64,000 nt of DNA. It comes from Marinomonas rhizomae (GTDB lineage Bacteria; Pseudomonadota; Gammaproteobacteria; Pseudomonadales; Marinomonadaceae). Both the position numbers and the translations under genes were made by a program. The stretch's first letter is position 1, and every line of letters begins with the position of its first letter. A model generated the notes under the pieces. It searched no databases and was not told where the DNA came from. It saw only the letters and a program-made list of their open reading frames with translations. The stretch lies in assembly GCF_003315485.1 (NCBI RefSeq), contig NZ_QNSE01000013.1, positions 1 to 64,000 on the forward strand. Reading direction: 5' to 3'. Of this stretch, positions 7,443 through 59,241 are shown piece after piece.

Positions 7443-8438
7443 CTAGAAAATTGAAGAGAATTCATCAACGTTAGACGCATCATAAACAAAAGGTTTCGCC
7501 ATGGCGCCATCACCGTTTTTGTCTACTTTAAGCGTGCCCATACGCCCCATCGGAATCTCAGTTTTTGTGCCTTGGCCTTTTACAAGGTTGTAAGCCAGCA
7601 TAGTCGCTGAATAACCAAGGTCAATTGGGTTCCAGATAGCAAAACTATGAATCGCACCACTGTGCACATGGCCAGCTAATTCAGAAGGAAGCCCCAAACC
7701 TGTCACATACACTTTGCCCGTTAAACCTAAGTCACTGACAGCTTGCGCGGCGGCCAAAATACCCACTGTAGTTGGTGCCACGATAACATCTAGATCTGGG
7801 TGATTTTTAATAAGCGCAGTCGCTTCACGGAAACTCTTATCCGCTAAGTCATCACCGTAAACAGTATCGACAAGTTTTAGGTTAGGGAATTTGCTAAGGG
7901 ATTTTTTCATTTCGCCAATCCAAATATTTTGGTTGGTCGAAGTAGGAGTTGCACTCAGAATGGCAAAAGTACCAGAGCTTTTACCTTTGGCTTTAATAGC
8001 ATCAGCCGCAAGCTGCACATTCATTTCGCCAATTAGACTGTTGCTAGAAGGGTTCAAATGGATTTGGCGGCCTTCTTTGCCAACACCAGAATCCCAAGAA
8101 ATCACTTTGATGCCGCGCTGTTGCGCTTTTTTCAAAGCTGGAACCAAGGCATCTGCATCGTTTGCGGATACGGCAATGGCATCGACACGCTGCGCGATCA
8201 ATGAGTTGATGATTTCAATCTGGCCTTCTGCTGTGGTTGACGTTGGACCTGTATAAATGATCTCTACATCGCCTAGCTCTTTTCTTGCTTCTTCGGCACC
8301 GCGATACGCGGCTTCGAAAAAGCCAATACCTAACGCCTTCACCAGTAACGCTACTCGAACTTGATCCGCTGCATATACACCAGATGCAAACAAAGTAGCA
8401 GAAGCCAACACACATGCCGTGATGAGTTTACTTTTCAT
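7443..8438 (-). CDS. rhaS: Rhamnose ABC importer, periplasmic binding protein RhaS
   Basis: With ATG at 8438 the product is 331 aa and begins with a standard signal peptide (MKSKLITACVLASATLFASG, cleavage near VYAA-DQ). A longer frame upstream lacks a ribosome site, whereas GGAG lies just before 8438. The mature part is a periplasmic-binding-protein fold of the RbsB/rhamnose class (Peripla_BP_4), with the segments VALLVKALGIGFFEAAYRGA and DAIAVSANDADALVPALKKA. It binds sugar in the periplasm and delivers it to RhaP/RhaQ. It follows rhaR after 62 nt and precedes rhaT after the palindromic repeat. Substrate is inferred from the complete rhamnose locus around it. Confidence 0.9.
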   Translation of the reverse strand: MKSKLITACVLASATLFASGVYAADQVRVALLVKALGIGFFEAAYRGAEEARKELGDVEIIYTGPTSTTAEGQIEIINSLIAQRVDAIAVSANDADALVPALKKAQQRGIKVISWDSGVGKEGRQIHLNPSSNSLIGEMNVQLAADAIKAKGKSSGTFAILSATPTSTNQNIWIGEMKKSLSKFPNLKLVDTVYGDDLADKSFREATALIKNHPDLDVIVAPTTVGILAAAQAVSDLGLTGKVYVTGLGLPSELAGHVHSGAIHSFAIWNPIDLGYSATMLAYNLVKGQGTKTEIPMGRMGTLKVDKNGDGAMAKPFVYDASNVDEFSSIF

Positions 8439-8500
8439 AATTATCTCCAAGAGCGCGCTCATCATCACACAACAGGAAATTGTCGGATCAGAGACGCGGT

Positions 8501-9518: not shown

Positions 9519-11609
9519 ATGTCTACTAACTTACTACCCAATCTTTGGAATGATGCTGACGCATCCCTTCTGACTGAACCCGAATTATTGCAATATCGAT
9601 CAAACTTGCTTGGTTCTGACATGCGCGTTACCAATTATGGTGGCGGTAATACCTCAGCAAAACTGCAAATGGACGACACGCTTACAGGAGAAAAAACCAC
9701 TGTATTGTGGGTAAAAGGCTCTGGTGGCGATATTGGCTCCATGGGCTTGGATGGTTTTTCCACTCTTTATATGGACAAACTGAATCAACTCTTACCACTA
9801 TATCGTGGGCTTGAGTTTGAAGATGAGATGGTCGCCTACCTTCCGCATTGTACTTACAACCTAAATTCACGCGCCGCCAGTATCGATACGCCGCTTCATG
9901 CGTATTTGCCTTACCTTCACGTCGATCACCTTCACCCAGATGCCGTGATCGCGATCGCGGCAAGCAAAAACAGCAAACAACTGACAGAAGACATTTTCAA
10001 CGGTGAAATTGGCTGGCTTCCTTGGCGTCGTCCAGGTTTTCAGCTAGGCATGGACTTGCATAAAATCGCCACTGAGAACCCTCACCTTAAAGGTGTTGTA
10101 TTAGAAAGCCATGGTCTTTTTACCTGGTCGAATGGCAACAAAGATTGCTACCTCAACTCGCTGAACATTATTAACAAAGCACAAACTTGGTTGGAACAAC
10201 AAAGCGCTGGCAAAGCCGCTTTTGGTGGTGAGTTATTTACCACCTTGCCCAACGACAAACGCCAACAAGTGGTTTCTAGTTTAATGCCACTCATTCGAGG
10301 AAAAACCAGTGAGAAGCAACGCCAGATTGGCCACTTTAACGCTTCAGACGAAGTGCTACAGTTCGTCAACTCTAAAGACCTAGATCGTCTTGCTAAACTT
10401 GGCACCTCTTGCCCAGACCACTTTTTGCGCACCAAAATTCGTCCTTTTGTGGTGGCGTATGATCCACAGAAAGACAACCTTGACGAAGTGATTGAATCAT
10501 TAGATCAAAGCCTTGCTGACTACCGTGAAGAATACGCGGGTTACTACAACCGTTGTAAACGCGATAACAGCCCAGCTATGCGCGATCCAAACCCGGTGAT
10601 TTACTTGATTCCAGGCGTTGGCATGTTGTCGTTTGCCAAAGACAAAGCAACGGCACGAATTGCAGGTGAATTCTATGTGAATGCGATCAATGTAATGCGT
10701 GGCGCAGACAGCGTGAGCGAATACGTTGGCTTGCCAGAACAAGAAGCCTTCGACATTGAATACTGGTTATTGGAAGAAGCCAAACTGCAGCGTATGCCAA
10801 AACCAAAATCCTTAGCAGGCCATATCGCTTTGGTGACGGGTGCGGCTGGCGGCATTGGTCTGGCGACGGCAAAACGTCTAGCCAAAGAAGGTGCCAACAT
10901 AGTATTGATGGACATAGACGAAGACGCTCTGACGACGGCGCAAGCAGATATCACTGGCGAGTTTGGGAAAGATTCCGCGTCTAGCATCAAGATGGATGTG
11001 ACCAACGAAGACGATGTTATCCGTGCCGTGAAACATTGCGCCGTGGCTTTTGGAGGTTTGGACATTGTTGTCTCCAATGCTGGCATCGCCTCTTCCGCAC
11101 CATTAGAAGAAACCACGCTTGCTCTATGGAATAAAAACCAAAGCATCTTATCGACAGGGTATTTCCTTGTTGCTCGTGAAGCCTTTAGTCTGCTAAAACA
11201 ACAGAATATGGGCGGCAACATGGTGTTTATCGCCAGTAAAAATGGCTTGGTTGCCAGTGCCAATGCCAGTGCTTATTGTGTTGCTAAAGCAGCTGAGATT
11301 CAGCTTGCGCGCTGCGTTGCTCTGGAAGGTGCACCACTTGGTATTCGTGCAAACGTGGTTAACCCAGATGCAGTGTTACGTGGCTCAAAAATTTGGACTG
11401 GCAAATGGAAAGAAGAAAGAGCCAGTGCTTACAAATTATCGACCGATGATTTAGAAGAGCATTATCGCCAACGCAGTATGCTGAAGCTGAATGTTTTCCC
11501 TGAAGACATCGCCGAGGCCATTTACTTTTTTGCGTCTGACGCGTCGTCTAAATCGACAGGCAATATTCTGAATGTCGATGCCGGTCATGCACCGTCATTT
11601 ACTCGCTAG
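9519..11609 (+). CDS. rhaD: Bifunctional rhamnulose-1-phosphate aldolase / lactaldehyde dehydrogenase (RhaD)
   Basis: The 696-aa fusion has a class II aldolase/adducin domain (about 1-410; metal-site histidines in HVDHLHPD and ESHGLF). A short-chain dehydrogenase domain follows (about 430-696), with NAD loop TGAAGGIG, NAG in VVSNAGIA and the catalytic YCVAKAAE (Y-x-x-x-K). The aldolase splits L-rhamnulose 1-phosphate into dihydroxyacetone phosphate and L-lactaldehyde; the dehydrogenase would oxidise the aldehyde to lactate. This two-domain form is well known from rhizobial rhaD. It starts after a GAGG ribosome site and is followed 35 nt later by rhaI, which indicates a two-gene rhaDI operon. 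Confidence 0.93.
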   Translation: MSTNLLPNLWNDADASLLTEPELLQYRSNLLGSDMRVTNYGGGNTSAKLQMDDTLTGEKTTVLWVKGSGGDIGSMGLDGFSTLYMDKLNQLLPLYRGLEFEDEMVAYLPHCTYNLNSRAASIDTPLHAYLPYLHVDHLHPDAVIAIAASKNSKQLTEDIFNGEIGWLPWRRPGFQLGMDLHKIATENPHLKGVVLESHGLFTWSNGNKDCYLNSLNIINKAQTWLEQQSAGKAAFGGELFTTLPNDKRQQVVSSLMPLIRGKTSEKQRQIGHFNASDEVLQFVNSKDLDRLAKLGTSCPDHFLRTKIRPFVVAYDPQKDNLDEVIESLDQSLADYREEYAGYYNRCKRDNSPAMRDPNPVIYLIPGVGMLSFAKDKATARIAGEFYVNAINVMRGADSVSEYVGLPEQEAFDIEYWLLEEAKLQRMPKPKSLAGHIALVTGAAGGIGLATAKRLAKEGANIVLMDIDEDALTTAQADITGEFGKDSASSIKMDVTNEDDVIRAVKHCAVAFGGLDIVVSNAGIASSAPLEETTLALWNKNQSILSTGYFLVAREAFSLLKQQNMGGNMVFIASKNGLVASANASAYCVAKAAEIQLARCVALEGAPLGIRANVVNPDAVLRGSKIWTGKWKEERASAYKLSTDDLEEHYRQRSMLKLNVFPEDIAEAIYFFASDASSKSTGNILNVDAGHAPSFTR

Positions 11610-11644
11610 CGCCTAGATAAAAAAGAACAATAAAAGGAATCACC

Positions 11645-12937
11645 ATGAAACAATTAATTGATCAAAACTTGCTGCAAGAGCACAACGCCAAGCAAGAAGC
11701 TGCGGTTACTAGCGATTACAATGCGCTAGCGGAGAAACTAGATCGTTCAGGCGTAAGAATCGATACAATCTTGGAACAGGCTAAGCAGTTCACCGTTGCC
11801 GTTCCTTCTTGGGGAGTTGGCACAGGTGGCACGCGTTTCGCGCGCTTTCCGGGCAAAGGCGAGCCACGTAATATCTTCGAAAAACTCGACGATTGCTCAG
11901 TTATTCAACTGCTATCACAAGCTACTCCTGCCGTTTCCCTACATATTCCTTGGGACAGACCAAAAGATCCAAACGAACTACGACAATACGCTGAGCAATA
12001 CGGTTTGCATTTTGATGCGATGAATTCCAACACCTTCCAAGATCAAATTGGTCAGGAAGAGTCGTACAAATTCGGCAGTTTGACACACACCAACAAAGCC
12101 GTGCGCGAACAAGCCATTGCCCATAATATTGATGTGGTGGAATTAGGTCAAAAGCTCGGTTCAAAGGCACTCACGGTTTGGGTAGGCGATGGCTCTAACT
12201 TTCCTGGTCAACAACACTTTAAAAACAGCTTTAGCCATTATTTAGACAGCATCAAGACGGTGTATAACAGTCTGCCTGATGATTGGAACATGCTACTGGA
12301 ACACAAAATCTTCGAACCAGCCTTTTACTCAACCGTAATTCAAGACTGGGGCAGCAGTTACCTTGCCGCAAAAGAAACTGGCGAGCGGTGTTTGTCTCTA
12401 GTGGATTTGGGGCATCATGCGCCCAACGTCAATATTGAAATGATCGTCAGCCGTCTTGCTCAATTCGGCAAACTGGGCGGGTTCCATTTCAACGACAGTA
12501 AATACGGTGATGATGATTTAGACAGCGGTTCAATTAACCCCTATCAACTCTTCCTGATCTTCAACGAATTGACCGACATTCGCGCGCAAGACCCGTCTTA
12601 CCGCCCTTTTTATATGCTAGATCAATCACACAACGTGACCGATCCAATCGAAAGTCTGATGTACAGCGCGGCAGAAGTCCAACGCGCTTTTGTGAAAAGC
12701 TTGCTTGTCGATCGCCAAGCATTGACTCAATACCAAGAAACAAACGATCCAATGATGGCACAAGCTAGCTTGAAACAAGCTTACAATTTGGATGTCGAAC
12801 CAATCTTGCAAATGGCGAGATTACACACTGGCGGTGCCATCGACCCTGTTAGCTGTTACCGTGCCAGCGGCTACCGTGCTGCCGTCGCCAAGGCTCGCCC
12901 AGCAGACCCAAACAAAACTGGTTCTGGGATCGTGTAG
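11645..12937 (+). CDS. rhaI: L-rhamnose isomerase, Rhizobium type (RhaI)
   Basis: The 430-aa protein matches the rhizobial-type L-rhamnose catabolism isomerase, a TIM-barrel metal enzyme distinct in sequence from E. coli RhaA. Recognisable segments are SWGVGTGGTRFARFPG (about 50-65), the metal-site LLEHKIFEPAF (about 218-228), DLGHHAPN and GGFHFNDSKYGDDD. It converts L-rhamnose to L-rhamnulose for the kinase domain of the fusion gene on the opposite strand. AGGA precedes its ATG, and it is the last gene of the rhaDI operon, followed by a strong terminator. Confidence 0.92.
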   Translation: MKQLIDQNLLQEHNAKQEAAVTSDYNALAEKLDRSGVRIDTILEQAKQFTVAVPSWGVGTGGTRFARFPGKGEPRNIFEKLDDCSVIQLLSQATPAVSLHIPWDRPKDPNELRQYAEQYGLHFDAMNSNTFQDQIGQEESYKFGSLTHTNKAVREQAIAHNIDVVELGQKLGSKALTVWVGDGSNFPGQQHFKNSFSHYLDSIKTVYNSLPDDWNMLLEHKIFEPAFYSTVIQDWGSSYLAAKETGERCLSLVDLGHHAPNVNIEMIVSRLAQFGKLGGFHFNDSKYGDDDLDSGSINPYQLFLIFNELTDIRAQDPSYRPFYMLDQSHNVTDPIESLMYSAAEVQRAFVKSLLVDRQALTQYQETNDPMMAQASLKQAYNLDVEPILQMARLHTGGAIDPVSCYRASGYRAAVAKARPADPNKTGSGIV

Positions 12938-18473: not shown

Positions 18474-18525
18474 TACATTGATTCCTTAGAAAAACACACC
18501 TTATGACCATAAGAAATGATCAGAA

Positions 18526-18803
18526 TTAAGCCCATTCAGAGAAAAGGTTCGCCATGTTTTCCAGGTGTTCATGCCTAGACGCATTTCTTCATCGTTCAAT
18601 AAGCAATTACCCAACTCAGCTCCCAACAACGCTTCCCCTTTCATTGCTCATCTCCACCATTTTTTCGTCTGTTCAAAACACTCTTTTCGCGATTATTCAG
18701 AATATGATTTCGTAAGCTGGACTTACCTACACCTAGAAAAACCAGACAATACTGCGACAGAAAGCTTTTTGCTTAATGTGCTATTCACAAAATATTCATC
18801 CAT
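18526..18803 (-). pseudogene. COG0523 (YciC/ZigA-type) zinc metallochaperone GTPase, internally deleted relic
   Basis: Reading minus from ATG at 18803 gives a short leader, then KLSVAVLSGF. After removing one T from a five-T run (18735-18739) it continues FLGVGKSSLRNHILNNRE, the P-loop start of COG0523 GTPases. The middle of the gene, including the CxCC metal site, is missing. The 3' part encodes ELGNCLLNDEEMRLGMNTW, the typical C-terminal segment. One more frameshift separates it from an expected PFPEWA-stop end whose TAA is at 18526-18528. The whole remnant is 278 bp against about 1.2 kb for an intact gene. It sits between a Zur box and folE2, exactly where COG0523 genes are often found. 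The short plus-strand frame over this stretch is not a gene. Confidence 0.78.
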
Positions 18804-18872
18804 AGAGCGCCCTACTTGATAGGAAGAAATGGAAAGGGCTTAAGTACTTAAAAATTAACAACATATATAAAA

Positions 18873-18887
18873 TGTTATAACATAACA
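18873..18887 (-). promoter_or_regulatory. Zur box upstream of the COG0523 relic and folE2
   Basis: TGTTATAACATAACA differs at one position from the gammaproteobacterial Zur core TGTTATAATATAACA and is nearly palindromic. It lies 70 bp upstream of the relic's start codon on the minus strand, about 400 bp from folE2. The site predicts repression of the folE2 operon when zinc is plentiful. Consensus recalled from the literature; binding is inferred. Confidence 0.75.
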
Positions 18888-19083
18888 AATTTGTTTTAAA
18901 CTACTATAACTAAAATGAATACAAAGGTCACTAGCTAGAGAGTCGATCATAATTACTATTTCCCTCTCCCTTAATGCTTTTCAGCTTACTTGCACTCATC
19001 TCCTACGTGCCAGTGATCACCTTGTACTTGCCTACGCTGTTTGGCTTTGAATGAATCGTTTGAGCTTTTAGCCAAATTCGACA

Positions 19084-19127
19084 TCAAAAAAAACAGCATG
19101 AAAGTGATAAACTTCCACGCTGTTTTT
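19084..19127. terminator. Terminator downstream of azoR (works both ways)
   Basis: AACAGC (19092-19097) pairs with GCTGTT (19119-19124), with further pairing of AAGT/ACTT inside. A run of eight A before the stem on the plus strand gives a T tract for the minus-strand azoR transcript. The stretch 18888-19083 between this and the Zur box shows no gene. Confidence 0.8.
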
Positions 19128-19138
19128 ATAGCCGTTAA

Positions 19139-19798
19139 TCAGTTCAATAGGTTTACTAAAGCGACAATATCTTGCTTTGCTTTTTCGACCGATAAAACGT
19201 GACGATCATCCGCAAATTCTTGGTATTCCGAACCGATTTCATAAAACTTATCCACGCCCAAATACTTGGCTAACTCTTTAATATGTGGACTTAAATGATT
19301 CATTTGTTCACGTACACCACCAATACCAAAACCAAACTCACCAGCTGAAGTCAGTAAAACTAAGGTCTTGCCTGACAAGATAGGTTCAATCGGAAAGTCG
19401 CCTCGCGCTAGGTCAAAGGTGAAGGTTTTATTCACTCTCAGCATTTGGTCGAACCACGCCTTCAATACCGCTGGCATGCCGTAGTTATACATGGGGGCGG
19501 TAATGAGGATGATATCCGCTTGAGCCACTTCATCAAAATACCTATCAGACTCAGCTAATACTCGCTGCTGTGACTCGCTTCTGTTTTGCTCTGGGGTAAA
19601 TGCCGCAGCAATCCAATCTTGGCAAATAAAGGTTGGCGGATTAAGACCAAGGTCGCGACAAACCACTTTGTCTTGATGATTTTTATTCAGCCATGTATCG
19701 ATAAAATAACGTCCAAATGACTTCGAAATCGAATTATAGCTTGGCGTCGAATTATCAGTACGACGTACACTGGAGTCGATATGTAGAATAGTTTTCAT
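19139..19798 (-). CDS. azoR: FMN-dependent NADH-azoreductase
   Basis: The 219-aa flavodoxin-fold enzyme starts MKTILHIDSSVR as in AzoR, and carries the flavin-binding ITAPMYNYGMPAVLKAWFDQ (about 99-118) and LLTSAGEFGFG (about 148) segments. AzoR reduces azo compounds and quinones with NAD(P)H in the cytoplasm. A divergent LysR gene 115 nt away is the likely regulator, a common pairing. A strong terminator lies just past the stop. Confidence 0.9.
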   Translation of the reverse strand: MKTILHIDSSVRRTDNSTPSYNSISKSFGRYFIDTWLNKNHQDKVVCRDLGLNPPTFICQDWIAAAFTPEQNRSESQQRVLAESDRYFDEVAQADIILITAPMYNYGMPAVLKAWFDQMLRVNKTFTFDLARGDFPIEPILSGKTLVLLTSAGEFGFGIGGVREQMNHLSPHIKELAKYLGVDKFYEIGSEYQEFADDRHVLSVEKAKQDIVALVNLLN

Positions 19799-19913
19799 GC
19801 TTTATGTCTCTTTCATTGATAGTGAGTCGACATAGTGTGTTCGGCAATCGTTTTAGTGACAAATGGTCTTATTTTTCCTATAAAGTAGTTATTCTCATCC
19901 ATAGAGTGCCTTT

Positions 19914-49170: not shown

Positions 49171-49530
49171 TTACTCAATCAGACCATCGAAATCCGCAGC
49201 ATCATGGCGCTCTTTCAGTTGCGCGCCATCACCAAAAGCTTTATTAACAATTCGTCCGCGTTGAACAGCTGGACGTTGTTCGATCTCTTTTGCCCAACGT
49301 AAAACATTCTTATAACTAGCAACATCTAAAAACTCAGCGGCATTGTACAAATTACCCAGTACTAAATTGCCATACCAAGGCCAAATCGCAATGTCTGCAA
49401 TAGAGTACTCTTCGCCAGCCATATAAGTGTTGTTCGCTAACTGTTTATCTAGCACATCTAACTGACGTTTGGTTTCCATAGTGAAGCGATCAATCGGATA
49501 TTGCATTTTAGTAGGTGCATAAGCGTAAAA
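49171..49530 (-). pseudogene. yghU: yghU-type glutathione transferase, 3' fragment cut by element insertion
   Basis: The minus-strand frame 49530-49171 encodes FYAYAPTKMQYPIDRFTMET, then the GST C-terminal helical domain (EEYSIADIAIWPWYGNLVLG) to a normal stop. It lacks about 170 N-terminal residues, which are at 58736-59241 on the other side of the element. The fragments join exactly: the upstream half ends GGGFGH and this begins FYAYA, as in the intact copy at 57709-58566. An internal ATG at 49506 could give a short product but no function is expected. The family reduces disulfides with glutathione. Confidence 0.92.
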
Positions 49531-49550
49531 GTATGTGTGTTATAATCACC
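49527..49550. other. attL junction of the integrated element
   Basis: Host sequence GCGTAAAA (49523-49530) meets element sequence GTATGTGTGTTATAATCACC (49531-49550). The host gene logic requires five A at the original site and four remain here, with three at the right end, which implies a 2-bp AA core. The arm TAATCACC is the inverse of GGTGATTA at the right end. Confidence 0.82.
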
Positions 49551-49583
49551 ACATAATCATCATGTGTTTAAAAGGTTAGGGAA

Positions 49584-51437
49584 ATGTCTAAAAAAGCATA
49601 TTCGTACATTCGCTATTCGTCACCACAGCAAGCAAAAGGTGATAGTTATAGACGACAATTTTCAAAAACTGTTGAGTATTGCAAAGAAAACGGCTACGAG
49701 CTGGATACTGACTTGATTTACAAAGAGCTGGGTAAGTCAGCAAGTAAACCTAACGAACAAAAAAGATTAAAAAAATTTATTGAAGATTGTGAAACTGGCA
49801 GAGTTGAAAAGGGAAGCTTACTTGTAGTTGAAAATTTAGATAGACTTTCTCGACAAAAAATAAATATTGCAATGAGCCAATTTTTAAACATATTAGAATA
49901 TGTTGATATATACACACTTCAAGATAAAAAATTATATTCAAATTCTGATGGAAATGATAAAAATCAACTCATAGACATTATTACAAGTCTAGTAGTTATG
50001 TCTCGTGCATACGAAGAAAGCGAAACTAAAAAATTACGACTTAAAGAGGTTTGGCAGGAAAAAAGAGATAAAATACAAGTTAAAAAAATCAACTCATCTT
50101 ATCCCCACTGGTTAACTGTTTCAGAAGATTGTAAAAGTTTTATTATAAAAGAAAAAGCTGCTGATGCTATCAGAAAAATATTCGAGTTATGCAATAATGG
50201 ATATGGGTTCTCTCAGATATTAAGATATTTAAATAATAATATCGAAAAATATCCAACTCCAAGTAGCAGATCAAAAACAGGTTTATGGGTCAGATCAACA
50301 ATACAGCTATTATTATCAGATAGGAGAATAATTGGAGAAATTCAACTATATAAAGGTGCATATAAAGAAAAAGTAGCACAAGGTGAAGCTGTTAAAGATT
50401 ATTATCCTAAAATAGTTGATGAAGAAACATTTTTAAAAGCTCAAATTTCTTTAAAGAGTAGAAGCATACAAAAGGGAAAAATTGGAAAATACAGTTTTTC
50501 AAATTTATTTAGGGGTATTGCTGTCTGCTACAATTGTTCGAACGTTTTGGAGTTTGTAGACAAAGGTAAAAACAATAAAAGAACCCGAAGGTATTTAACT
50601 TGTACAGATGCTAAAAGAGGCGGATCGTGCAATGTATCAACTCATTACAAATATGATGAATTAGAGTTAATGTTGTTACATCTAATTTCAGAAAACGGTT
50701 TTTTGCCCGTGAAAGTTGATCCATCTGAAATAGAGATAAAGATTCAAAAAAACAAAGAACTTAAAAAATCGGCAGAAAATAAATTAAACATTTTGATTGA
50801 ACAAGATTTCACTGCAACTGCAATTATAAATAAAATAAAAGATCTAAACAATGAAATTGATTTTTTAAAAAAAGAAATAAAAGAACTAGAAGATAATTTA
50901 GAAAAAGTTGAAATTAAATATACATTTGAAGATCTTATTAATGAAATGAAAAATGAACAAGATGAAGACCTTAAGTTTAATAACAGAATAAGATTGAATA
51001 GTTATTTAAAAAACAAAATAAAAACAATCAAAATAGCAAAACTGCATAATATTTATATGAACTTTACCATGATTGACAATAGTGTGTATGATGCAATTAT
51101 AGATATTAAATACAATTTGGGCGGTTGTGAGAAAAAAGGAGATAAAGATTTTAAAATAAAAAAACTTAATGGCACCGAAAACTACTCAATAGATATAAGA
51201 TCGTGGTCATTAATTAAATCATTCAACCTTATAATATTAAAATATAGTGATTTGATGCTAGGATTAGAAAATAAAAATAAAAATGAAGAGGATTTAAATG
51301 ATATTGATAAATTAAACAAAGAAATAAACAGAGTAAATCTATTAATAAGTAATTTTATTAAAAAAGATAATGACAATAGCAATGATTTTGAAAAAATATT
51401 GACTGAAATTATGGCTCTATATAATTTATTTAAATAA
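49584..51437 (+). CDS. Large serine recombinase (element integrase)
   Basis: The 617-aa protein starts with the resolvase catalytic domain: AYSYIRYSSPQQAKGDSYRRQ (about 5-25, catalytic Ser within YSSPQQ) and ENLDRLSRQ (about 93-101). A recombinase domain follows (about 190-290), with a zinc-ribbon with CYNCSN and CTDAKRGGSC (about 316-350) and a long coiled coil (about 375-460). Large serine recombinases integrate DNA at an attB with a 2-bp core, matching the AA core deduced from the junctions. It lies 53 nt inside the left end, the usual place. A GTTAGGG-AA site precedes ATG. Strong A/T codon bias. Confidence 0.93.
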   Translation: MSKKAYSYIRYSSPQQAKGDSYRRQFSKTVEYCKENGYELDTDLIYKELGKSASKPNEQKRLKKFIEDCETGRVEKGSLLVVENLDRLSRQKINIAMSQFLNILEYVDIYTLQDKKLYSNSDGNDKNQLIDIITSLVVMSRAYEESETKKLRLKEVWQEKRDKIQVKKINSSYPHWLTVSEDCKSFIIKEKAADAIRKIFELCNNGYGFSQILRYLNNNIEKYPTPSSRSKTGLWVRSTIQLLLSDRRIIGEIQLYKGAYKEKVAQGEAVKDYYPKIVDEETFLKAQISLKSRSIQKGKIGKYSFSNLFRGIAVCYNCSNVLEFVDKGKNNKRTRRYLTCTDAKRGGSCNVSTHYKYDELELMLLHLISENGFLPVKVDPSEIEIKIQKNKELKKSAENKLNILIEQDFTATAIINKIKDLNNEIDFLKKEIKELEDNLEKVEIKYTFEDLINEMKNEQDEDLKFNNRIRLNSYLKNKIKTIKIAKLHNIYMNFTMIDNSVYDAIIDIKYNLGGCEKKGDKDFKIKKLNGTENYSIDIRSWSLIKSFNLIILKYSDLMLGLENKNKNEEDLNDIDKLNKEINRVNLLISNFIKKDNDNSNDFEKILTEIMALYNLFK

Positions 51438-51454
51438 CATCAACTCGCTTTAAA

Positions 51455-51597
51455 GCCGCTTGCGGCATATCTCTTTAATATCTTAACCAATTACATCAAT
51501 GAATTACAAAACACGCTTAAAACATCATTTAAACGCTTTTTATGGTCATCGCTTCGCTCTTCCGCTCTTCCAGAAAAGCCCGAAGGGCATATCTCTT
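51455..51597. repeat. Two hairpin-ATATCTCTT modules after the recombinase gene
   Basis: GCCGC-TT-GCGGC (51455-51466) is followed at once by ATATCTCTT (51467-51475). A second, different hairpin GCCC-GAA-GGGC (51578-51588) is followed by the same ATATCTCTT (51589-51597). The stems differ but the 9-nt tail is identical. In an AT-rich setting these GC stems stand out. They may be terminators or binding sites; no gene lies between them. Confidence 0.6.
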
Positions 51598-51739
51598 ACG
51601 CACTTAATAAGTCTTTATTTTGTTTTTTTGCGTCTTTTTGCGAAAAATAAAAGAAAGAAAATCTAAGTACTTTTTATCTATATTAAAGATTCTAAATTAG
51701 TTAATAATTTACATTAGTTAGTAATCTATATTATTAGCA

Positions 51740-51858
51740 CACCACTATTTTACATCTTCATCCACCATTATTTTACTTCTTCATCCACCACTATTTTACT
51801 TTGCACACACCACAATTAAGCTTTTACTTTCAATCACACACACCACAATTAAGCTTTT
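51740..51858. repeat. Iteron-like direct repeats upstream of the Rep-like gene
   Basis: A 23-bp unit beginning CACCAYTATTTTAC is repeated three times in register (starts 51740, 51763, 51786). Then CACACACCACAATTAAGCTTTT appears twice (starts 51804, 51837). All units share CACCAC/T followed by A/T. The array lies about 230 bp before a Rep-like gene, the standard layout of an iteron plasmid origin. The flanking parts of 51438-52091 are otherwise non-coding. Confidence 0.72.
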
Positions 51859-51887
51859 TGACCCAACACTTCAATACATAATTTGAC

Positions 51888-51906
51888 AATTTAAAAAAAT
51901 ATGATT
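51888..51906 (+). promoter_or_regulatory. AT-rich block shared with the abiH promoter
   Basis: AATTTAAAAAAATATGATT, preceded by TTGAC, recurs in nearly the same form before abiH (55267-55286, AATTATAAAAAAATATGATT preceded by CTGTCA). Both lie upstream of plus-strand element genes. A shared promoter or regulator site is likely but undefined. Confidence 0.4.
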
Positions 51907-51930
51907 AATTGAAATTATAAACAAAAAAAA

Positions 51931-51954
51931 TCGCATTCAAATTAATGAATGCGA
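51931..51954. terminator. Hairpin before the Rep-like gene
   Basis: TCGCATTCA (51931-51939) pairs perfectly with TGAATGCGA (51946-51954), with eight A before and CTTTTA after. It can act as a bidirectional terminator that isolates the repeat region from the Rep-like gene, or as a leader structure for it. Confidence 0.6.
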
Positions 51955-52091
51955 CTTTTAAAAATTAAACTTCCTGCAAAGAAGATATAAATTAATATAC
52001 ATTTAATTATTGAAAAGTCAATTGTTAAATTTCAAAAATTGTATTTCTTCACTGTTTAATTTTTAAAATTATATAACGAGGAATATAAAAA

Positions 52092-52724
52092 ATGATAGAA
52101 TACTTTACAATAGCGAGAGAATTAATGAACAGAGAAAACAAACTACATTATGAATTATTTGATTTTAAACAAAATCACGACATTAAACTATTTGTTGCGA
52201 TTTTATCAAACGCAACTATGATTTATAAAAATAACAAAACAGATGAAAACTATTTGACTTTTTCATTAAAAAACTTTTTTTCAGCCGATAGTTATTTATG
52301 TAGGGCTACATTAAGTTTTATTTATATAGAAAAGTTTTTAAGAACCAATGAAATAATAATGTCAAAATTCTTTGATTTAATTGATTATGATTTAGAAAAC
52401 AAAACTATAAGTTTTACTTTTACTGAAAATTATATAAAAACTATGAAAAAAAGCGGTTTTAATAAATTAGAATTAAAAACATTGAAAAGCATAAAAGACA
52501 TTAGAACAACTAAATTAGCTATGATTTTAGCGATGAAGCCTAGTGGTTATTTAGACGTAAATTATTTATTTAAAGTTTTAGATTTGTATAAAATTGAGCG
52601 AAGAGATAGAAGAATATTCAAAATCAAACAAGCTTTTAAAAGCTTAAATGTAAAATGTGAATATAAATATCCTAAAAATAAAAATTCACCAGTGTTACAA
52701 GAGCACTATAAGTTTTACTATTAA
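52092..52724 (+). CDS. Putative replication initiator (Rep_3/RepB-like)
   Basis: The 210-aa protein shows a pattern fitting two winged-helix domains. The first covers about 5-120 (IARELMNRENKLHYELFDFK, start of a Rep_3-like domain) and the second about 125-195 (LKSIKDIRTTKLAMILAMKP, then VLDLYKIERRDRRIFKIKQA). This resembles RepB/Rep_3 initiators of small iteron plasmids, and the iteron-like array just upstream supports it. Similarity is by eye and modest. The length is short for the family, where 230-350 is common, so the N-terminal domain could be reduced. It converges on the relaxase gene with a 4-nt overlap of ends. Very AT-rich. Confidence 0.55.
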   Translation: MIEYFTIARELMNRENKLHYELFDFKQNHDIKLFVAILSNATMIYKNNKTDENYLTFSLKNFFSADSYLCRATLSFIYIEKFLRTNEIIMSKFFDLIDYDLENKTISFTFTENYIKTMKKSGFNKLELKTLKSIKDIRTTKLAMILAMKPSGYLDVNYLFKVLDLYKIERRDRRIFKIKQAFKSLNVKCEYKYPKNKNSPVLQEHYKFYY

Positions 52725-54715
52725 AACTTATAACGTTTTTTATTTGAATTTTCAATTCTCACATTATTATTTAAATCATTCTTATGATCTATTTTTAACC
52801 TAAACAATCCATCTTTATCATCTAATATACTTTTTAGTGATCTATCTTTATTTAATTCATTTAAGACATAATCAGCATCATATTTTTTATCTAAATTTGA
52901 TAATACAAATTGTCTTTGCTCATTAATACTATTGTTTGTTAATTTATTATCATACAGATTGATCAAGTTTGAATTACTCATTTTTTCGTTTAAAACAACA
53001 CTTTTGACATCATCAAGAGAGATTAAAGAATTTTCTAATTGAAAGAAAAATAAATCATCTTTGTTGTTTTTAAATGCTATTCTCATAGAATTTAAAGTAA
53101 GTTCTTTATTACTTGAACTTGCACCCTTCCAGCCATTTTCTTTTGCTATTTTATAAGTAAGCTCTAAATCGAAAGAATTAGAATTAGGACTTAATGATAT
53201 TGTTTTTTTATCTTCGCTTATCTTCAAATTGAAGTTGTTTGGTCTTTTTTCTTCATCTTTTTTGTTGTAAAAAATCGATAAAGAACCATCTTTATTTTTA
53301 ATCTGTTTATAGTTGTAGTTTAAATTTTTAACATCAAAATCATCTCTAATGCTTAATTTTTCATCATTTTTAAAGCTTCTATTAGTTAAGTATTCGAATA
53401 AATCAGCATCATTTTTTTTAATTTTCCCATAGGTTAAATATGAATTTATCTTTCCAGCAGCAAGAGAAATATCATCATCTAGTGATGTGAATGTTATTCC
53501 GCCTGTTCCGTTTTCTCTTTTATTTACATAAATTTCTATATTATTATCATTTAGTATATCAATAAATTCTTTTGTATTTTTAGAATTCCTATAAGCATTA
53601 TTAACTGTGTTTTTTAAGTTTGAAAAAATGTCATTATTATTTAAAAGATCATCTTTTTTATCTAAAATATGTCTTTCTTTATTATTAACGATATTAATTT
53701 TTTTCTCATTTATTATTTTTTTACCATTAAGTTTTCGATGGTGATTATTTTTTTTATTCCAGTCGTTTGTTTTTATATCTTGTAATTTTGTAATTTTATT
53801 TTTATTCTCTTTTATTAAACTTTCTTTATATTCGTTATCAACTTTGACTTGATCAGTAAACCAATTTTTAAATTTCTTAAAGACACTGTATTTAATAGGT
53901 TTTTCTAATTCTGTAATTTTCTCATATATTACATTTATTTTATTATTAACTTTTTTTCTATTATTTGAATGAATATCTTTGTTCTTATTTATATCTGAAA
54001 TTATTTTATTTTCTTTTGTTTTCAAAGAATATTTAATATTGCCCAATTCGTCAATTTTCAAATCATAATCAATTGATTTATTTTTAGCTATTTTTTTATG
54101 ATCATCACTTAAATTTGCAACATATATTTTCTTTTTTTTATTGTTAGCGTCTATTTTCCATACATAATTTTTAGGGTCATTTTTACCTGTCAGTGTTAAT
54201 TTATGCACTTTCTCTATGTGCTGCACTGCTGACTGTCTTTTTAAGCCTGAATTGCTTTGTCTATAGTAGTTGCCCACCTCGTCGTGATAACCCCTTACAA
54301 GATGAAAATGGAGCTTCCCGCTGTCGATCTGCGGCCAGATCATGTAGGGCGTTTTTTCAAAATTAGGATCGTATTTTTTAGCTGTTTTTATAGCTAATTT
54401 TAAAGCGTTAGTCATACCTAACTTTTCATCATCTTCATTAGAAAAAGATATTATAGAATGTTCGTATAGGTATTTTTGACGCGAATTTTTAGATAATTGT
54501 GAATTAGCATCAACTGACAATATAAAGTTATCAACGAGCTGGTTATATTCGTTATTATCGTTGATATTAGAGCAATAACCGCAATTAGAAGATACTGAAA
54601 TTAACCTAGGATTATTAGAATTGTTTAATCCTGCTTTATTATTGCTATTGTATTTTACAACTTTTTTTAATTGCTTAATCGTTGTAGCTTCGTGTTTTAG
54701 TGAGAAAATAGCCAT
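52721..54715 (-). CDS. Relaxase, MobA/VirD2 type
   Basis: The 664-aa protein has a relaxase-like N-terminal domain of about 190 residues. A candidate nicking Tyr is in VVKYNSN (about 19-25), and the metal-binding motif III is seen as KLHFHLVRGYHDEVG (about 135-149, H-x-H). The rest is long, lysine/asparagine-rich and helical (about 200-350), with a C-terminal globular part that may be a primase-like or DNA-binding region. Relaxases nick oriT and stay bound to the transferred strand. It overlaps the mobC-like gene start by 1 nt, a typical mobCA order. It requires a helper conjugation system. Confidence 0.8.
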   Translation of the reverse strand: MAIFSLKHEATTIKQLKKVVKYNSNNKAGLNNSNNPRLISVSSNCGYCSNINDNNEYNQLVDNFILSVDANSQLSKNSRQKYLYEHSIISFSNEDDEKLGMTNALKLAIKTAKKYDPNFEKTPYMIWPQIDSGKLHFHLVRGYHDEVGNYYRQSNSGLKRQSAVQHIEKVHKLTLTGKNDPKNYVWKIDANNKKKKIYVANLSDDHKKIAKNKSIDYDLKIDELGNIKYSLKTKENKIISDINKNKDIHSNNRKKVNNKINVIYEKITELEKPIKYSVFKKFKNWFTDQVKVDNEYKESLIKENKNKITKLQDIKTNDWNKKNNHHRKLNGKKIINEKKINIVNNKERHILDKKDDLLNNNDIFSNLKNTVNNAYRNSKNTKEFIDILNDNNIEIYVNKRENGTGGITFTSLDDDISLAAGKINSYLTYGKIKKNDADLFEYLTNRSFKNDEKLSIRDDFDVKNLNYNYKQIKNKDGSLSIFYNKKDEEKRPNNFNLKISEDKKTISLSPNSNSFDLELTYKIAKENGWKGASSSNKELTLNSMRIAFKNNKDDLFFFQLENSLISLDDVKSVVLNEKMSNSNLINLYDNKLTNNSINEQRQFVLSNLDKKYDADYVLNELNKDRSLKSILDDKDGLFRLKIDHKNDLNNNVRIENSNKKRYKF

Positions 54716-55083
54716 TATTTCCCCCTATTCGCTTGCTTAACGTGTTTTGTGAAATAATTTTTAGCTTTAATTCCCTGACTTAAAAAATCTTTGATCTTTT
54801 TAATATCATCATCATTTAATGATTTTCTTTCATTTGCTACTCTTGCAAGTTGATTTAAATTATTTCCGTATTTTATCAAGTAGTTTAATACTTTTAAAGA
54901 ATGCCCCCCTTTATCTACATAAACAGATTTAAAGCCTTTTCCATTGTTAATATAATGAATTATTAAAGCCTCCCAACTTTTAAAACCTGAGATTATTTTT
55001 TGCTCGTTTAGTAGTTCATAAGTCGAATCATCAACTCGTATATGAATACTTTTCCTTCTATTATTTTTATTTTTGTTTTCCAT
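54715..55083 (-). CDS. Relaxosome accessory protein, MobC-like
   Basis: The 122-aa protein starts with a ribbon-helix-helix-like segment (RRKSIHIRVDDSTYELLNEQ, about 9-28) and ends with the MobC signature YLIKYGNNLNQLARVANERK (about 68-87). MobC proteins bind oriT and help the relaxase reach the nick site. Its ATG is preceded by AGGAA. The 239-nt gap upstream holds the candidate oriT. Confidence 0.82.
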   Translation of the reverse strand: MENKNKNNRRKSIHIRVDDSTYELLNEQKIISGFKSWEALIIHYINNGKGFKSVYVDKGGHSLKVLNYLIKYGNNLNQLARVANERKSLNDDDIKKIKDFLSQGIKAKNYFTKHVKQANRGK

Positions 55084-55202
55084 TTTCTATTCCTTTTTTT
55101 ATAATTTGTCCAAGTGCCAACGCGGAAAATTATGCTGTTTATTTTATATCTATCTCTCAAATTTAATTTATTAAATTTCATATTTTCGGAGAAAATCAAG
55201 TT

Positions 55203-55221
55203 AAGTTGGGGAACCCAACTT
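55203..55221. other. Candidate oriT inverted repeat
   Basis: AAGTTGGG (55203-55210) and CCCAACTT (55214-55221) form a perfect 8-bp repeat around GAA, within the otherwise AT-rich gap between the divergent mobC-like and abiH genes. A second feature, CAAGTGCCAACGCGG (about 55109-55123), is GC-rich and could be a nick region. The position beside mobC fits an origin of transfer; no known oriT family could be matched by eye. Confidence 0.5.
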
Positions 55222-55266
55222 TCTACTTGCAATATAATACATTTAGCATATTAGATTGAACTGTCA

Positions 55267-55286
55267 AATTATAAAAAAATATGATT
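55267..55286 (+). promoter_or_regulatory. Candidate promoter region of the abiH pair
   Basis: AATTATAAAAAAATATGATT nearly repeats the block at 51888-51906. It is about 37-56 bp upstream of the abiH start and is followed by TGTAATATATTAA, a reasonable -10 context. It is the probable promoter of the two-gene abiH unit. Confidence 0.45.
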
Positions 55287-55322
55287 TACTGTAATATATT
55301 AATTGAACAGGAATCAAAATAA

Positions 55323-56276
55323 ATGAAAAAACTGTATGTCATAGGGAATGGTTTTGATTTACATCATGGTCTTAATACTAGCTTTTTGAACTTTAAAGAA
55401 TATCTCAGAGTTTATAATGTAGAGTTATTAAATCTGTTTGATATGTTTTACTACTCAAATAGGTATGAAGATTTATGGTCAAATTTTGAATATAACCTGG
55501 CAAATTTAGATAAAGATAATTTGCTTGATCATTTATCAGAGTTCCTTCCAGTAATTTCAAGTGATGACTTCAGTGATAGAGATTGGCACGCTTCGGATAT
55601 TGAATGTGATAAAATATTGGGACTTTTAACAAAAGGGTTACGTATAAATTTCAAAGATTTCATTATAAAGGCTTCTATTAAAAAAATTGATGACAATAAG
55701 AAAATAAAAATAGATTCAAAAGCCAGTTATATTAGCTTCAATTATACTAAAACTCTGGAAAAAGAATACTGTGTTGATAATGAAAATATTTTTTACATCC
55801 ATGGAATTGCATATGGAGATGAAGAAATTATCTTAGGTCATGCAACAGATCCTAATATTTTCAAAGATAGTAAAGACACTATAAAGATACCAGAAGACGT
55901 TTCTGACGAGTATTTAGATTGGTGGTATAGTGAAATGTCGAGTAATAATGATACAATGTATGAAGAGTTAGTCAGTAATGTAAATGATTATTTTTTATCT
56001 TCGTACAAAAACACACAAAAAATAATTGAAGATAACTCTGATTATTTTAAAAAGCTATCAAATGTTGAAAAAATATTTATTTTAGGACACTCAATGTCTG
56101 ATGTTGATATTTCATATTTTGAAAAAATAGCTATTTCATTAAATGAAGATTGTATATGGTATGTTTCTTACTATGATAAAAATGACTATGAATATAAAAA
56201 TAAAGTTCTTGGCATGTTAGATATAGACGCAAGTAAATATCAACTTATTGACTTTAAAGATTTACCATTTATTTAA
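55323..56276 (+). CDS. abiH: AbiH-family phage abortive-infection protein
   Basis: The 317-aa protein shows the AbiH family pattern: N-terminal LYVIGNGFDLHHGLNTSFLNF (key residues G-N-G-F-D-L-x-H-G-L, about 4-24), central SFNYTKTLE (about 138-146) with IHG nearby, and C-terminal LGHSMSDVDISYF (about 258-270). AbiH was described from lactococcal plasmids as blocking phage multiplication by abortive infection; the molecular target is not known. Here it lies in the cargo part of a mobile element and is followed after 11 nt by a gene for a membrane protein, which suggests a joint function. AGGAATC precedes ATG. Low GC like the rest of the element. Confidence 0.88.
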   Translation: MKKLYVIGNGFDLHHGLNTSFLNFKEYLRVYNVELLNLFDMFYYSNRYEDLWSNFEYNLANLDKDNLLDHLSEFLPVISSDDFSDRDWHASDIECDKILGLLTKGLRINFKDFIIKASIKKIDDNKKIKIDSKASYISFNYTKTLEKEYCVDNENIFYIHGIAYGDEEIILGHATDPNIFKDSKDTIKIPEDVSDEYLDWWYSEMSSNNDTMYEELVSNVNDYFLSSYKNTQKIIEDNSDYFKKLSNVEKIFILGHSMSDVDISYFEKIAISLNEDCIWYVSYYDKNDYEYKNKVLGMLDIDASKYQLIDFKDLPFI

Positions 56277-56287
56277 AGAGACAAATA

Positions 56288-57586
56288 ATGAAAATACTAG
56301 GAGATTTTTTTTCTTCAATTATAGGAAATACAAAAACAAGAATAAGAGACCCTTTTATTGGGACATTTTTTATATCTTGGATTATTTGCAACTGGAATTA
56401 TTTGGCAATACTTCTTTGGGGAGAAGAAAGTCTCACCCAGAGAGTTAAAGATTTTCATCGTTACATAACAAGCTCTGATTTTTTCGAATTGAATTCAATA
56501 TTTTTCTTACCCTTAATTATAAGTACGGTATACCTTTTCTTATTCCCTTGGCTTTCATTTATCATAAAACACTTACAAATAGTCGCTAATAATAAGCTAC
56601 ACAAACAAGCTGTGGACATTGATCTTAGTCAAATAATTCAACAAGAAAAACTTAATAAAGCTAAGTTAAGAGCTGATCCTGATAAGACTTTTTTAGCTCA
56701 AAGTGTACAGATTGATTTAGATAGGAAAAAGCATATATCTGAACAATGCGAATTAAGAACTTCACGATTTAAAGCGAAAAATAAAGAAGCTATCGCAAGA
56801 GCTGAAGAAGCGGAAAGTAAAAAAAATATTGCAGCTCTAGACGAGTCAAAGAAAAAAAATCAAGCTGATTTAGAGCGCCAGAAATTTAACGTTAGCAGTG
56901 CTGAACTTCGATCCACCTTATCTTCTCACCGTTTTCCGTCTGCATTTCTATTCATATCATCACTTTCAGAAAGTTTTGAAGAAGATGGGATTACTCTTTC
57001 TCTAAATACTTTGTGTAATGTAGTTACAGCAATATTCGGTTACGATAGTTTTCAATTACTTTTAGAAGATAAGAAATTTGATAATGAAAGTTTATCAAAC
57101 GTGAAATATATTTTTTATGATGAGAGTATTTTAGCAAATAAGCTTGATGAAATTTCTTCCTATGAGAACAAAAATATTACTTCAGAGATGTTATTTAGTA
57201 ATATACAAATAATATTCGAAGACTTGCCTTATAAATTTGTCAATATTGAAGAACTAACTCAACTTAGTATTGAACTATGTGAAAATAACTCATTTGATTT
57301 ATTAGAAAGTGATGAGGTTTGTGGAACAATGGCAGAGTCAGATACTATTTATGATGAAGTTTATATAGAAGGAGCAGAATCTCCAGATTTTAATGATGGA
57401 TTCACAGTTTCAGTTAAAGCATCAGCAAGTGGCTCTCATCGTAAAGAAGATGGTATTCCAGGTAGAGATATGAATATAGTAGCAGAAGTTTATAGTAAAG
57501 CACGAGTTGGAAAGTTTGGTTTAGGAGAACTTGAGATAGGAGATATTAGTAGCAATTTAATCGATTATTGGGAAGAAGAAGTTTAG
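56288..57586 (+). CDS. Unrecognised membrane/coiled-coil protein paired with abiH
   Basis: No family could be named. The 432-aa protein has two TM helices near the N-terminus (about 24-46, FIGTFFISWIICNWNYLAIL, and 71-93, FFLPLIISTVYLFLFPWLSF). A charged coiled coil of about 110 residues follows (about 105-212, rich in K, E, A, Q), then an acidic C-terminal domain (about 215-432) with a beta-rich end (GFTVSVKASASGS to GLGELEIGDISSN). The RDPFIGTFFISWIICNW start resembles membrane modules I associate with accessory proteins, from memory only. It begins 11 nt after abiH, so the two are almost certainly co-transcribed. A membrane-acting effector or anchor in a two-gene defence unit is a fair hypothesis. 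Confidence 0.8.
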   Translation: MKILGDFFSSIIGNTKTRIRDPFIGTFFISWIICNWNYLAILLWGEESLTQRVKDFHRYITSSDFFELNSIFFLPLIISTVYLFLFPWLSFIIKHLQIVANNKLHKQAVDIDLSQIIQQEKLNKAKLRADPDKTFLAQSVQIDLDRKKHISEQCELRTSRFKAKNKEAIARAEEAESKKNIAALDESKKKNQADLERQKFNVSSAELRSTLSSHRFPSAFLFISSLSESFEEDGITLSLNTLCNVVTAIFGYDSFQLLLEDKKFDNESLSNVKYIFYDESILANKLDEISSYENKNITSEMLFSNIQIIFEDLPYKFVNIEELTQLSIELCENNSFDLLESDEVCGTMAESDTIYDEVYIEGAESPDFNDGFTVSVKASASGSHRKEDGIPGRDMNIVAEVYSKARVGKFGLGELEIGDISSNLIDYWEEEV

Positions 57587-57664
57587 TTTATAAATTTTCT
57601 AAAAAAGTAATTTACAAGCAATAAACTTTAACATCTATTTCGGTTAAATTATATTATAAGTAAT

Positions 57665-57695
57665 AATAAGCGCACTAATTTATAGTGCGCTTATT
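57665..57695. terminator. Bidirectional terminator between the abiH pair and the yghU copy
   Basis: AATAAGCGCACTA (57665-57677) pairs perfectly with TAGTGCGCTTATT (57683-57695) around ATTTA. It lies between the convergent ends of the membrane-protein gene and the intact yghU copy and can end both transcripts. Confidence 0.88.
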
Positions 57696-57708
57696 TCTAA
57701 CCTGCGGT

Positions 57709-58566
57709 TTATGGCTTTAATTTCAAAACGTTATCAATGTCATCAGCAGAATGACGCTCTTTCACTTGCTCCCACTCTTCACCAAATGAGCGGTTAACTA
57801 TACGCCCACGTTGCACACCTTCACGAAGCTCTATCATTTTCGCCCAACGTACAACATTCTCATACGTATGAACTTGTAAGAACTCAGCTGCATCGTACAA
57901 CTTGCCAAGTACAAGGTTTCCATACCAAGGCCAAATAGCCATATCTGCAATTGTGTATTCTTCACCAGATACATAGGTGTTTTTTGACAATTGCTTGTCC
58001 AACACGTCCAGCTGACGCTTAGCTTCCATCGCAAAGCGATTTATTGGGTATTCTTGTTTTACACCTGCGTATGCATAAAAATGACCAAACCCACCGCCTA
58101 AGAATGGAGCTGAGCCTTGTGCCCAAAAAAGCCAATTAAAGGTCTGTGTTCGTGCTGAACCAGCTTGAGGAAGGAACTTACCAAACTTCTCGGCAAGATG
58201 AACAAGTATAGACGCTGACTCAAATACATTTACACCTTCATCGCCAGATTTATCTAATAGTGCTGGAATTTTCGAGTTTGGATTAACGCTAACAAAACCC
58301 GAAGAAAACTGTTCTGATTCACCTATGTTAATAAGATAAGCATCGTACTCCGCTTCCTTTATTCCAAGGGCTAATAACTCTTCTAGTAGAATGGTTACTT
58401 TTTGGCCGTTTGGCGTACCCAGTGAATAAAGCTGAAGAGAGTGCTCACCTACTGGTAATTTTTTATCAAATCTTGCGCCCGATTCAGGGCTATTGATATT
58501 TGCCCATTGGTTATCACCTTCTGCATCATTTACCCAAATTTTTGGTGGTACGTATTGATTACTCAT
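57709..58566 (-). CDS. yghU: Intact yghU-type glutathione transferase carried by the element
   Basis: The 285-aa protein is complete: an N-terminal extension (MSNQYVPPKIWVND), a thioredoxin-fold domain (about 40-130: LQLYSLGTPNGQKVTILLEE, then NPNSKIPALLD and FESASILVHLAEKF), and a helical C-terminal domain (about 145-270, EEYTIADMAIWPWYGNLVLG). E. coli YghU is a glutathione-dependent disulfide-bond reductase. It is clearly homologous to the disrupted host gene but diverged at many positions, so it is not a simple duplicate of it. Its GC content is nearer to the host than to its element neighbours. Lying inside the element, it may restore the function lost on insertion. Its own sequence keeps an attB-like site at about 58065-58095. 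Confidence 0.92.
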   Translation of the reverse strand: MSNQYVPPKIWVNDAEGDNQWANINSPESGARFDKKLPVGEHSLQLYSLGTPNGQKVTILLEELLALGIKEAEYDAYLINIGESEQFSSGFVSVNPNSKIPALLDKSGDEGVNVFESASILVHLAEKFGKFLPQAGSARTQTFNWLFWAQGSAPFLGGGFGHFYAYAGVKQEYPINRFAMEAKRQLDVLDKQLSKNTYVSGEEYTIADMAIWPWYGNLVLGKLYDAAEFLQVHTYENVVRWAKMIELREGVQRGRIVNRSFGEEWEQVKERHSADDIDNVLKLKP

Positions 58567-58715
58567 AGTGTCCCCTTGGATTAGAACTGACGGATTATTA
58601 AGAATGCTGTATTGTGAACTTTCAAACCATATGACACTCTTTACATGTGGTTTAAACCTTGATTTTACAAGTAAACTATTGAATATTAAGGATTTTATTA
58701 TTATCTTTATTTTAG

Positions 58716-58738
58716 GGTGATTACAACATACTCATAAA
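58716..58738. other. attR junction of the integrated element
   Basis: Element end GGTGATTACAACATACTCAT (58716-58735) meets AAATGACC (58736 on), the continuation of the host gene. With the left junction it rebuilds an attP with 20-nt arms around AA, and an attB reading GCGTAAAAATGACC. Confidence 0.82.
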
Positions 58739-59241
58739 TGACCAAAGCCACCGCCTAAATAAGGCGCAGAACCCATCTGCCAGAATAACCAGTTACGGCA
58801 TTCTGTTTTTGCTGCTAGCTCTTTTGGTATAAAGGCATCAAACTTTTCTGCCAAGTATTGCAGAATAGAACCAGATTCAAAAACACGAGTCGGTGGTGTA
58901 GTACTGTGATCCATCAAAGCAGGGATTTTTGAGTTTGGGTTGATGTCAACAAAATCCGAGCCAAACTGATCGCCCTCACCAATGTTAATCAAGTAAGCAT
59001 CGTATTCTGCTGCGCTGATTCCCAATGCTAAAAGCTCTTCCAGCATAATAGTGACTTTTTGACCATTGGGCGTCGCCAAAGAATGAAGTTGTAACGAGTG
59101 CTGGCCAACTGGCAATACTTTGTCATGCGTTGCACCTGCTATCGGACGATTAGTACTGGCAAATTTACCACCGTTTTCTGTATTCCATTGCCATACCTTT
59201 GGTGGGACATACTCTTCATTTTTAATAGAGTCAGAACTCAT
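58736..59241 (-). pseudogene. yghU: yghU-type glutathione transferase, 5' fragment cut by element insertion
   Basis: The frame from ATG at 59241 encodes an N-terminal extension (EEYVPPKVWQWNTENGGKF), the thioredoxin-fold domain (LQLHSLATPNGQKVTIMLEE, NPNSKIPALMD, FESGSILQYLAEKF) and the start of the helical domain, ending GGGFGH at the junction. One element-derived codon and a TGA follow. The remaining 120 codons are at 49171-49530. The retained promoter would still drive a truncated 169-aa product, which lacks most of the helical domain and is unlikely to be stable. Confidence 0.92.

Follow-up and report, generated by a model that had tools for sequence, protein, structure and literature searches.

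A mobile element of 9.2 kb splits the host yghU gene of Marinomonas rhizomae after codon 168 of 287 and carries an intact yghU of a foreign clade, suggesting that this serine-integrase element brings a self-contained replacement for the gene that it splits, a reading to which we give a probability of roughly 0.75. The element lies in a stretch of 64,000 nucleotides, which is called the window here. The same anatomy, with a common dyad upstream of the carried gene, was found on a second contig (L062); the window and L062 are the two cases of a split yghU with an intact carried copy.

Results

Insertion site and ends of the element

The element extends from about 49531 to 58735, with 9205 bases between the two host pieces (Table 1). 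The host yghU starts at 59241 on the minus strand and the host sequence stops at about 58736-58738. When fused in frame, the two host fragments encoded 287 aa, and this joined YghU showed 92-93.5% identity to the three same-genus orthologues compared. The frames of the host pieces in the window are still open and their dN is low, which fits a recent insertion.

The two ends of the element showed what is expected of att sites, namely a short common core bounding the element: TTT was present at both element-host junctions, adjoining 20-bp arms which match each other as inverted repeats at 15 of 20 positions. Inverted-repeat arms are what the attP of a serine integrase is expected to show. When the element ends were compared over 26 bases, 16 positions matched, a number reached by 19 of 5000 shuffles.

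Table 1. Features of the yghU insertion in the window, with the basis of each assignment.
Feature	Position	Strand	Basis
Host yghU 3' fragment, codons 169 to end	49171-49533	-	tblastn with carried YghU, 68% over residues 162-282
Left end (attL): TTTT 49527-49530 and element arm 49531-49550	49527-49550	.	Sequence; arm comparison
Large serine recombinase, presumed integrase	49584-51437	+	Pfam Resolvase 53.1, Recombinase 52.8, Zn_ribbon_recom 27.9 bits
210-aa ORF without assigned family	52092-52724	+	Pfam, NCBIfam, PADLOC searched
Large AT-rich ORF, relaxase candidate only by position beside mobC	52721-54715	-	Role inferred
MobC-like mobilisation protein	54715-55083	-	PF05713 29.1 bits, cut-off 23.2
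AbiH-family phage-defence protein	55323-56276	+	PF14253 201.6 bits (cut-off 30.9); PADLOC AbiH 74.1 bits
432-aa protein, possibly defence-linked	56288-57586	+	Homologue context
Terminator-like hairpin after carried yghU	57665-57695	-	13 pairs; L062 counterpart
Intact carried yghU, 285 aa, Vibrio-type clade	57709-58566	-	NF008731, tree
30-bp dyad AAACCACATG-N10-CATATGGTTT, ~90 bp before carried start codon	58624-58653	-	Counterpart in L062
Right end (attR): element arm 58716-58735 and TTT 58736-58738	58716-58738	.	Sequence; arm comparison
Host yghU 5' fragment	58732-59241	-	Carried copy 62-64% identical; 302.1 bits to NF008731

Genes of the element

The gene content suggests that the element is probably a serine-integrase element of the integrative mobilizable element (IME) type. 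Its presumed integrase has the three Pfam domains of the large serine recombinase that a serine-integrase IME should have, each one exceeding its own Pfam cut-off. As to mobilisation functions, the MobC-like protein scored above the cut-off, and for the neighbouring large ORF a Pfam search up to E 10 yielded no relaxase match and tblastn against plasmids gave no match. Neither Pfam nor NCBIfam nor PADLOC had a match to the 210-aa ORF at E 0.001. The 432-aa protein had no Pfam match; a homologue of it, 46.5% identical, adjoins restriction-modification and DUF262 genes on a Vibrio aerogenes plasmid, and because of these neighbours the protein may be the product of a defence gene beside AbiH.

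Identity and origin of the carried yghU

The initial annotation had described an intact yghU inside the element, next to the junction and oriented as the broken host gene, differing from the host fragments at many residues and having a host-like GC content unlike that of the AT-rich core. The coordinates and tblastn bore out the position and orientation of this gene, just inside the right end. The carried YghU was 64% and 68% identical to the host 5' and 3' pieces, respectively, and 66% identical to the joined host YghU, and the GC content was 0.414 for the carried gene and 0.427 for the joined host gene against 0.21-0.32 per kb in the element core, so the description held for divergence and composition as well. 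The carried protein matched NCBIfam NF008731 (YghU) with 490.5 bits (cut-off 325) and was alike to YghU (NF008731/PRK11752; PDB 3c8e) over residues 2-278 (E 1.4e-119), looking like an ordinary member of this family with no difference noted. The gene is complete and separate, with a start codon of its own that lies about 170 bases beyond the cut, and it does not form one frame with the host remainder as the element part of target-restoring elements does. Only one weak GST-like match (31%, E 1.5e-4) was obtained when the rest of the M. rhizomae genome was searched with the carried YghU. Promoter-like sites were not in excess around the carried gene (4 found, 5.3 expected from shuffles).

The nearest relatives of the carried YghU among the best 80 genome_contigs loci listed were those of Vibrio and Amphritea, with up to 85% identity; in viral_contigs, three loci were 55-63% identical. 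A maximum-likelihood tree of 89 rows was built with 86 of the 133 loci and three added rows, leaving out L092-L126, L171 (the same DNA as L062), L179 and L181-L190; its bootstrap was not fully settled. The joined host gene fell within the genus clade, and the carried gene was placed apart from it, in a 26-row, mainly Vibrionaceae set with support of 100/95; the two copies, whose phylogeny the initial annotation had proposed to compare, thus belong to different clades. In 30-codon windows, the identity of the carried copy was 0.77-0.93 to the Vibrio chagasii copy and 0.43-0.83 to the host gene, and the former was the closer one in 18 of 18 windows, showing no sign of gene conversion.

Such a gene might be cargo that is kept for its own benefit, as glutathione-dependent stress protection or extra dosage, and not as a replacement. 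Relatives of the carried yghU are indeed found on plasmid records too (198 of 72,556 with at least 60% identity; 790 records had any match, many of them to other GSTs). However, for random cargo it would be a coincidence to share its family with the target and to lie at the very junction that breaks it, and we regard this explanation as improbable.

A second yghU insertion and the signals common to both

A survey of other yghU-inserted elements for carried copies, as had been suggested for this locus, found one on L062, a contig of the Pseudomonadales MAG DT_90 whose DNA is that of G142, where the 5' part of a host yghU is cut at the same GGTCATTT site. In a search of the order and class samples for a fragment plus a whole yghU, only the M. 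rhizomae genome and G142 were among the matches listed. The order on L062 is cut host yghU, spacer, intact yghU, terminator-like hairpin and a convergent partial ORF. The intact yghU is 82% identical to the carried copy of the window, and the two were sisters in the maximum-likelihood tree with moderate support (88/87, bootstrap not settled). A dN/dS of about 0.06 was obtained between them, a rough figure with synonymous sites near saturation, which suggests that the carried yghU may be under selection. In L062 the reading frame of the host 5' piece is lost upstream and the carried gene is intact. The partial ORF resembled AbiH weakly (45% over 29 aa), its PF14253 score being 14.6 bits (E 0.037), below the cut-off of 30.9.

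L062 is a 3.3 kb contig that ends at the partial ORF. When an integrase relative was searched for in its 84% complete genome, none was found, nor was a host yghU 3' piece found for L062. Its host fragment, which has a long branch, grouped with the genus of the window and apart from the two rows of its family, which makes misbinning of the contig possible. L062 is presumably what is recovered of a complete element like that of the window.

The dyads are located at -90/-89, being AAACCACATG-TAAAGAGTGT-CATATGGTTT in the window and AAATCAAATG-AAAAGAGTGT-CATTTGATTT in L062. The two differ little in the middle; in the arms, a C-G pair is replaced by T-A, with both sides changed, and one mismatch is closed. 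The dyad was absent upstream of the other yghU genes (133 loci, of which L062 and L171 represent one DNA, plus the host gene) when about 350 bases, or 222 in L053, were scanned; other dyads of equal match and different sequence were present upstream elsewhere, for example in L015, L088 and L198. A pattern built from both dyads, with at most three mismatches allowed, matched two of the 390 order genomes, at precisely the places of the window and L062, and one of the 369 class genomes, that of M. rhizomae itself. A search of viral_contigs with a shorter exact form found none. Folding of the dyad was clear in L062 (z -4.3) and not clear in the window (z -1.1), and the dyad could either bind a protein or act as a hairpin in RNA. 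The spacer before the carried yghU also has a ribosome-binding-like AAGGGG. The GCGCAC hairpin after the carried gene is common to the window and L062, and it may have come with the gene, because two Enterovibrio loci have a similar one.

The carried clade spans several families, indicating that yghU moves between lineages, and a Vibrio-type yghU could in principle have arrived by ordinary gene transfer, with the element inserted alongside by chance. Nevertheless, L062 repeats the gene, its orientation, its closeness to the cut host gene, the dyad and the terminator, so that two separate events seem very improbable to us.

yghU in related genomes

All 48 genomes of the genus that were searched had yghU. 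In each of the other 47 at least one near-full-length match was in one piece, and none was split. The fpr gene was directly beside yghU, as in the window, at 12 of 27 same-genus loci (gap of 58-252 bases), and at seven of these 12 the 48091-48870 gene of the window was found on the other side. A second yghU adjoined the first at none of the 27 loci within about 1.5 kb on each side. The one-piece genes and the lack of an adjacent copy in these loci indicate that the empty site exists and that the extra copy belongs to the insertion. The old tandem paralogue in element-free relatives, which the initial annotation had named as the finding that would speak against cargo, was not found in these genomes and loci.

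That the element broke one of two adjacent yghU genes is hardly credible, even if G150, G293 and G304 of the genus do have a second yghU-type gene, because the carried copy has one half of the host gene on either side, these second copies are on other contigs, the one inspected (L166) is among ordinary genes, and the carried and host genes are set apart in the tree; this reading was rejected on synteny and the tree together.

Further yghU matches were obtained in G150, G293, G304 and G317, the last being 39% identical over part of its length. The second yghU genes of G293 (L166, G293:C1, 9317-10183) and G150 were 70-71% identical and located elsewhere on the chromosome. L166 was considered as element cargo and rejected, having ordinary neighbours and no recombinase in the part listed. 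In L168 (G304:C5), a frameshifted yghU at 1076-1927, perhaps a contamination, matched the carried copy piecewise with 74-82% identity; L168 was also discarded as another element, since neither a host fragment nor a recombinase was seen on its 3.1 kb. In E. coli, 5366 of 5426 genomes matched yghU and 5364 had one place covering at least 80% of it; one of the remaining two had yghU interrupted by an IS1 insertion.

Other serine-recombinase elements

Serine recombinases were found in 7 of 293 order genomes, that of M. rhizomae included. Nine recombinase places outside the window were surveyed over 20 kb each, and only L165 had a whole gene together with a displaced end of the same gene. L165 (G000:C4:165001-185000; 2-1297 and 11545-11820) is a second serine-recombinase element of the M. 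rhizomae genome, located in a carboxypeptidase gene which we take to be of the M32 type, and its recombinase is 30% identical to the integrase of the window. This element gives its target a new 3' end, the last 88 residues of which share 83% identity with the displaced host end; a short extra stretch is duplicated in the fused gene, and the old 3' end is displaced beside the integrase. An L165-like arrangement was observed in another species of the genus, G307, which was added after the nine-place survey of order genomes (L201, G307:C5:122001-141900; 18485-19900, 8195-8458 and 6067-6330). The identities of the related integrases of L165 and L201 to that of the window were 28-30%. L201 has two displaced 3' ends of the target (84% and 88%), as if two insertions were stacked at one site. 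Other internal repeats near serine recombinases were noticed in L158, L159 and L161, and in L161 (G251, 6119-7123) two adjacent ORFs that are 71% alike lie about 2 kb from the serine recombinase. No close relative of the window's integrase was encoded in the 72 genome_contigs and 14 viral_contigs stretches matching the pattern, and the site choice of this integrase therefore rests on two insertions.

The carried yghU retains the target core GGTTTGGTCATTTTTA near codon 160, and consequently the element might insert into its own cargo. It is very doubtful, however, that the carried copy mainly serves to preserve an intact attachment site so that further elements can stack, as the two displaced ends in G307, of the kind that repeated insertion would leave, could suggest: the core codes for protein and is common to the orthologues compared, so its presence needs no stacking purpose, and no stacked yghU element was seen.

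Discussion

The replacement allele proposed in the initial annotation is well supported by the synteny, the separate clade of the carried gene and the related copy of L062. In the mechanism that we propose, yghU would be cut in two after codon 168 when the integrase recombines attP with an attB that lies within the gene. The right-end cassette, which consists of the spacer with its dyad and AAGGGG, a complete Vibrio-type gene and a terminator, could then supply YghU while the element stays integrated, and excision would re-form the host yghU. The carried copy is presumably expressed, offsetting the cost of the insertion, and the element presumably still moves. Judged from the DNA, the carried copy may make yghU a safe landing site, and purifying selection, a dyad of its own and a terminator fit this. 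A change of the host's redox properties through the exchanged allele, which the initial annotation also suggested, is conceivable. It is not obvious why a host should need a substitute for YghU, since E. coli can do without yghU.

Elements that make up for the damage of their own insertion are known already. SXT in prfC, phage 21 and e14 in icd and the elements in guaA supply the 3' or 5' end of their target. They resemble the element of the window in that respect; however, they fuse a part of their own to the host remainder, whereas the element described here leaves the remainder broken and brings a foreign gene that is full-length and has a control region of its own. The carboxypeptidase elements of L165 and L201 are like that of the window in having a related serine integrase, an insertion in a coding gene and compensation, but they supply only the 3' end and not the whole gene. 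Related integrases in one genus thus appear to offset the damage in two ways, by part-gene fusion and by whole-gene replacement, of which only the whole-gene form is unusual. We found no published example of a complete carried copy of the target in limited searches (open papers and set phrases), which are a weak proof of absence.

In the part of the IME review drawn on here (PMC5704250), site-specific serine-recombinase IMEs are described as disrupting dispensable genes, with three streptococcal IMEs in rumA as an example, and tyrosine-integrase IMEs as preserving the end of the target gene. The serine-recombinase IMEs of that text are like the element of the window in having a single large serine recombinase, a mobilisation gene, an insertion in a coding gene and very short common sequences at the ends (PMC5704250). 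In contrast, their target is disrupted and dispensable, whereas the element of the window brings a complete substitute, and a carried substitute for the target is not mentioned in that part of the review (PMC5704250).

An integrase that lands in the middle of a protein gene should be costly to the host, and the use of such mid-gene sites would become understandable if the element carries a complete substitute. A broader proposal, that gene-targeting elements bring their own target, so that a foreign redox enzyme under the dyad of the element avoids the cost and, for as long as the element resides there, brings a glutathione enzyme of the host under its control, with the attachment core kept, is put forward only tentatively, and we hold it to be rather unlikely. 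If elements do carry substitutes, other integrase families would be predicted to carry paralogues of their own targets, and a split gene with an intact homologue inside the insert would be the signature for searching for them. The finding also points to a way in which a foreign version may silently take the place of an enzyme gene that all 48 genus genomes searched possess.
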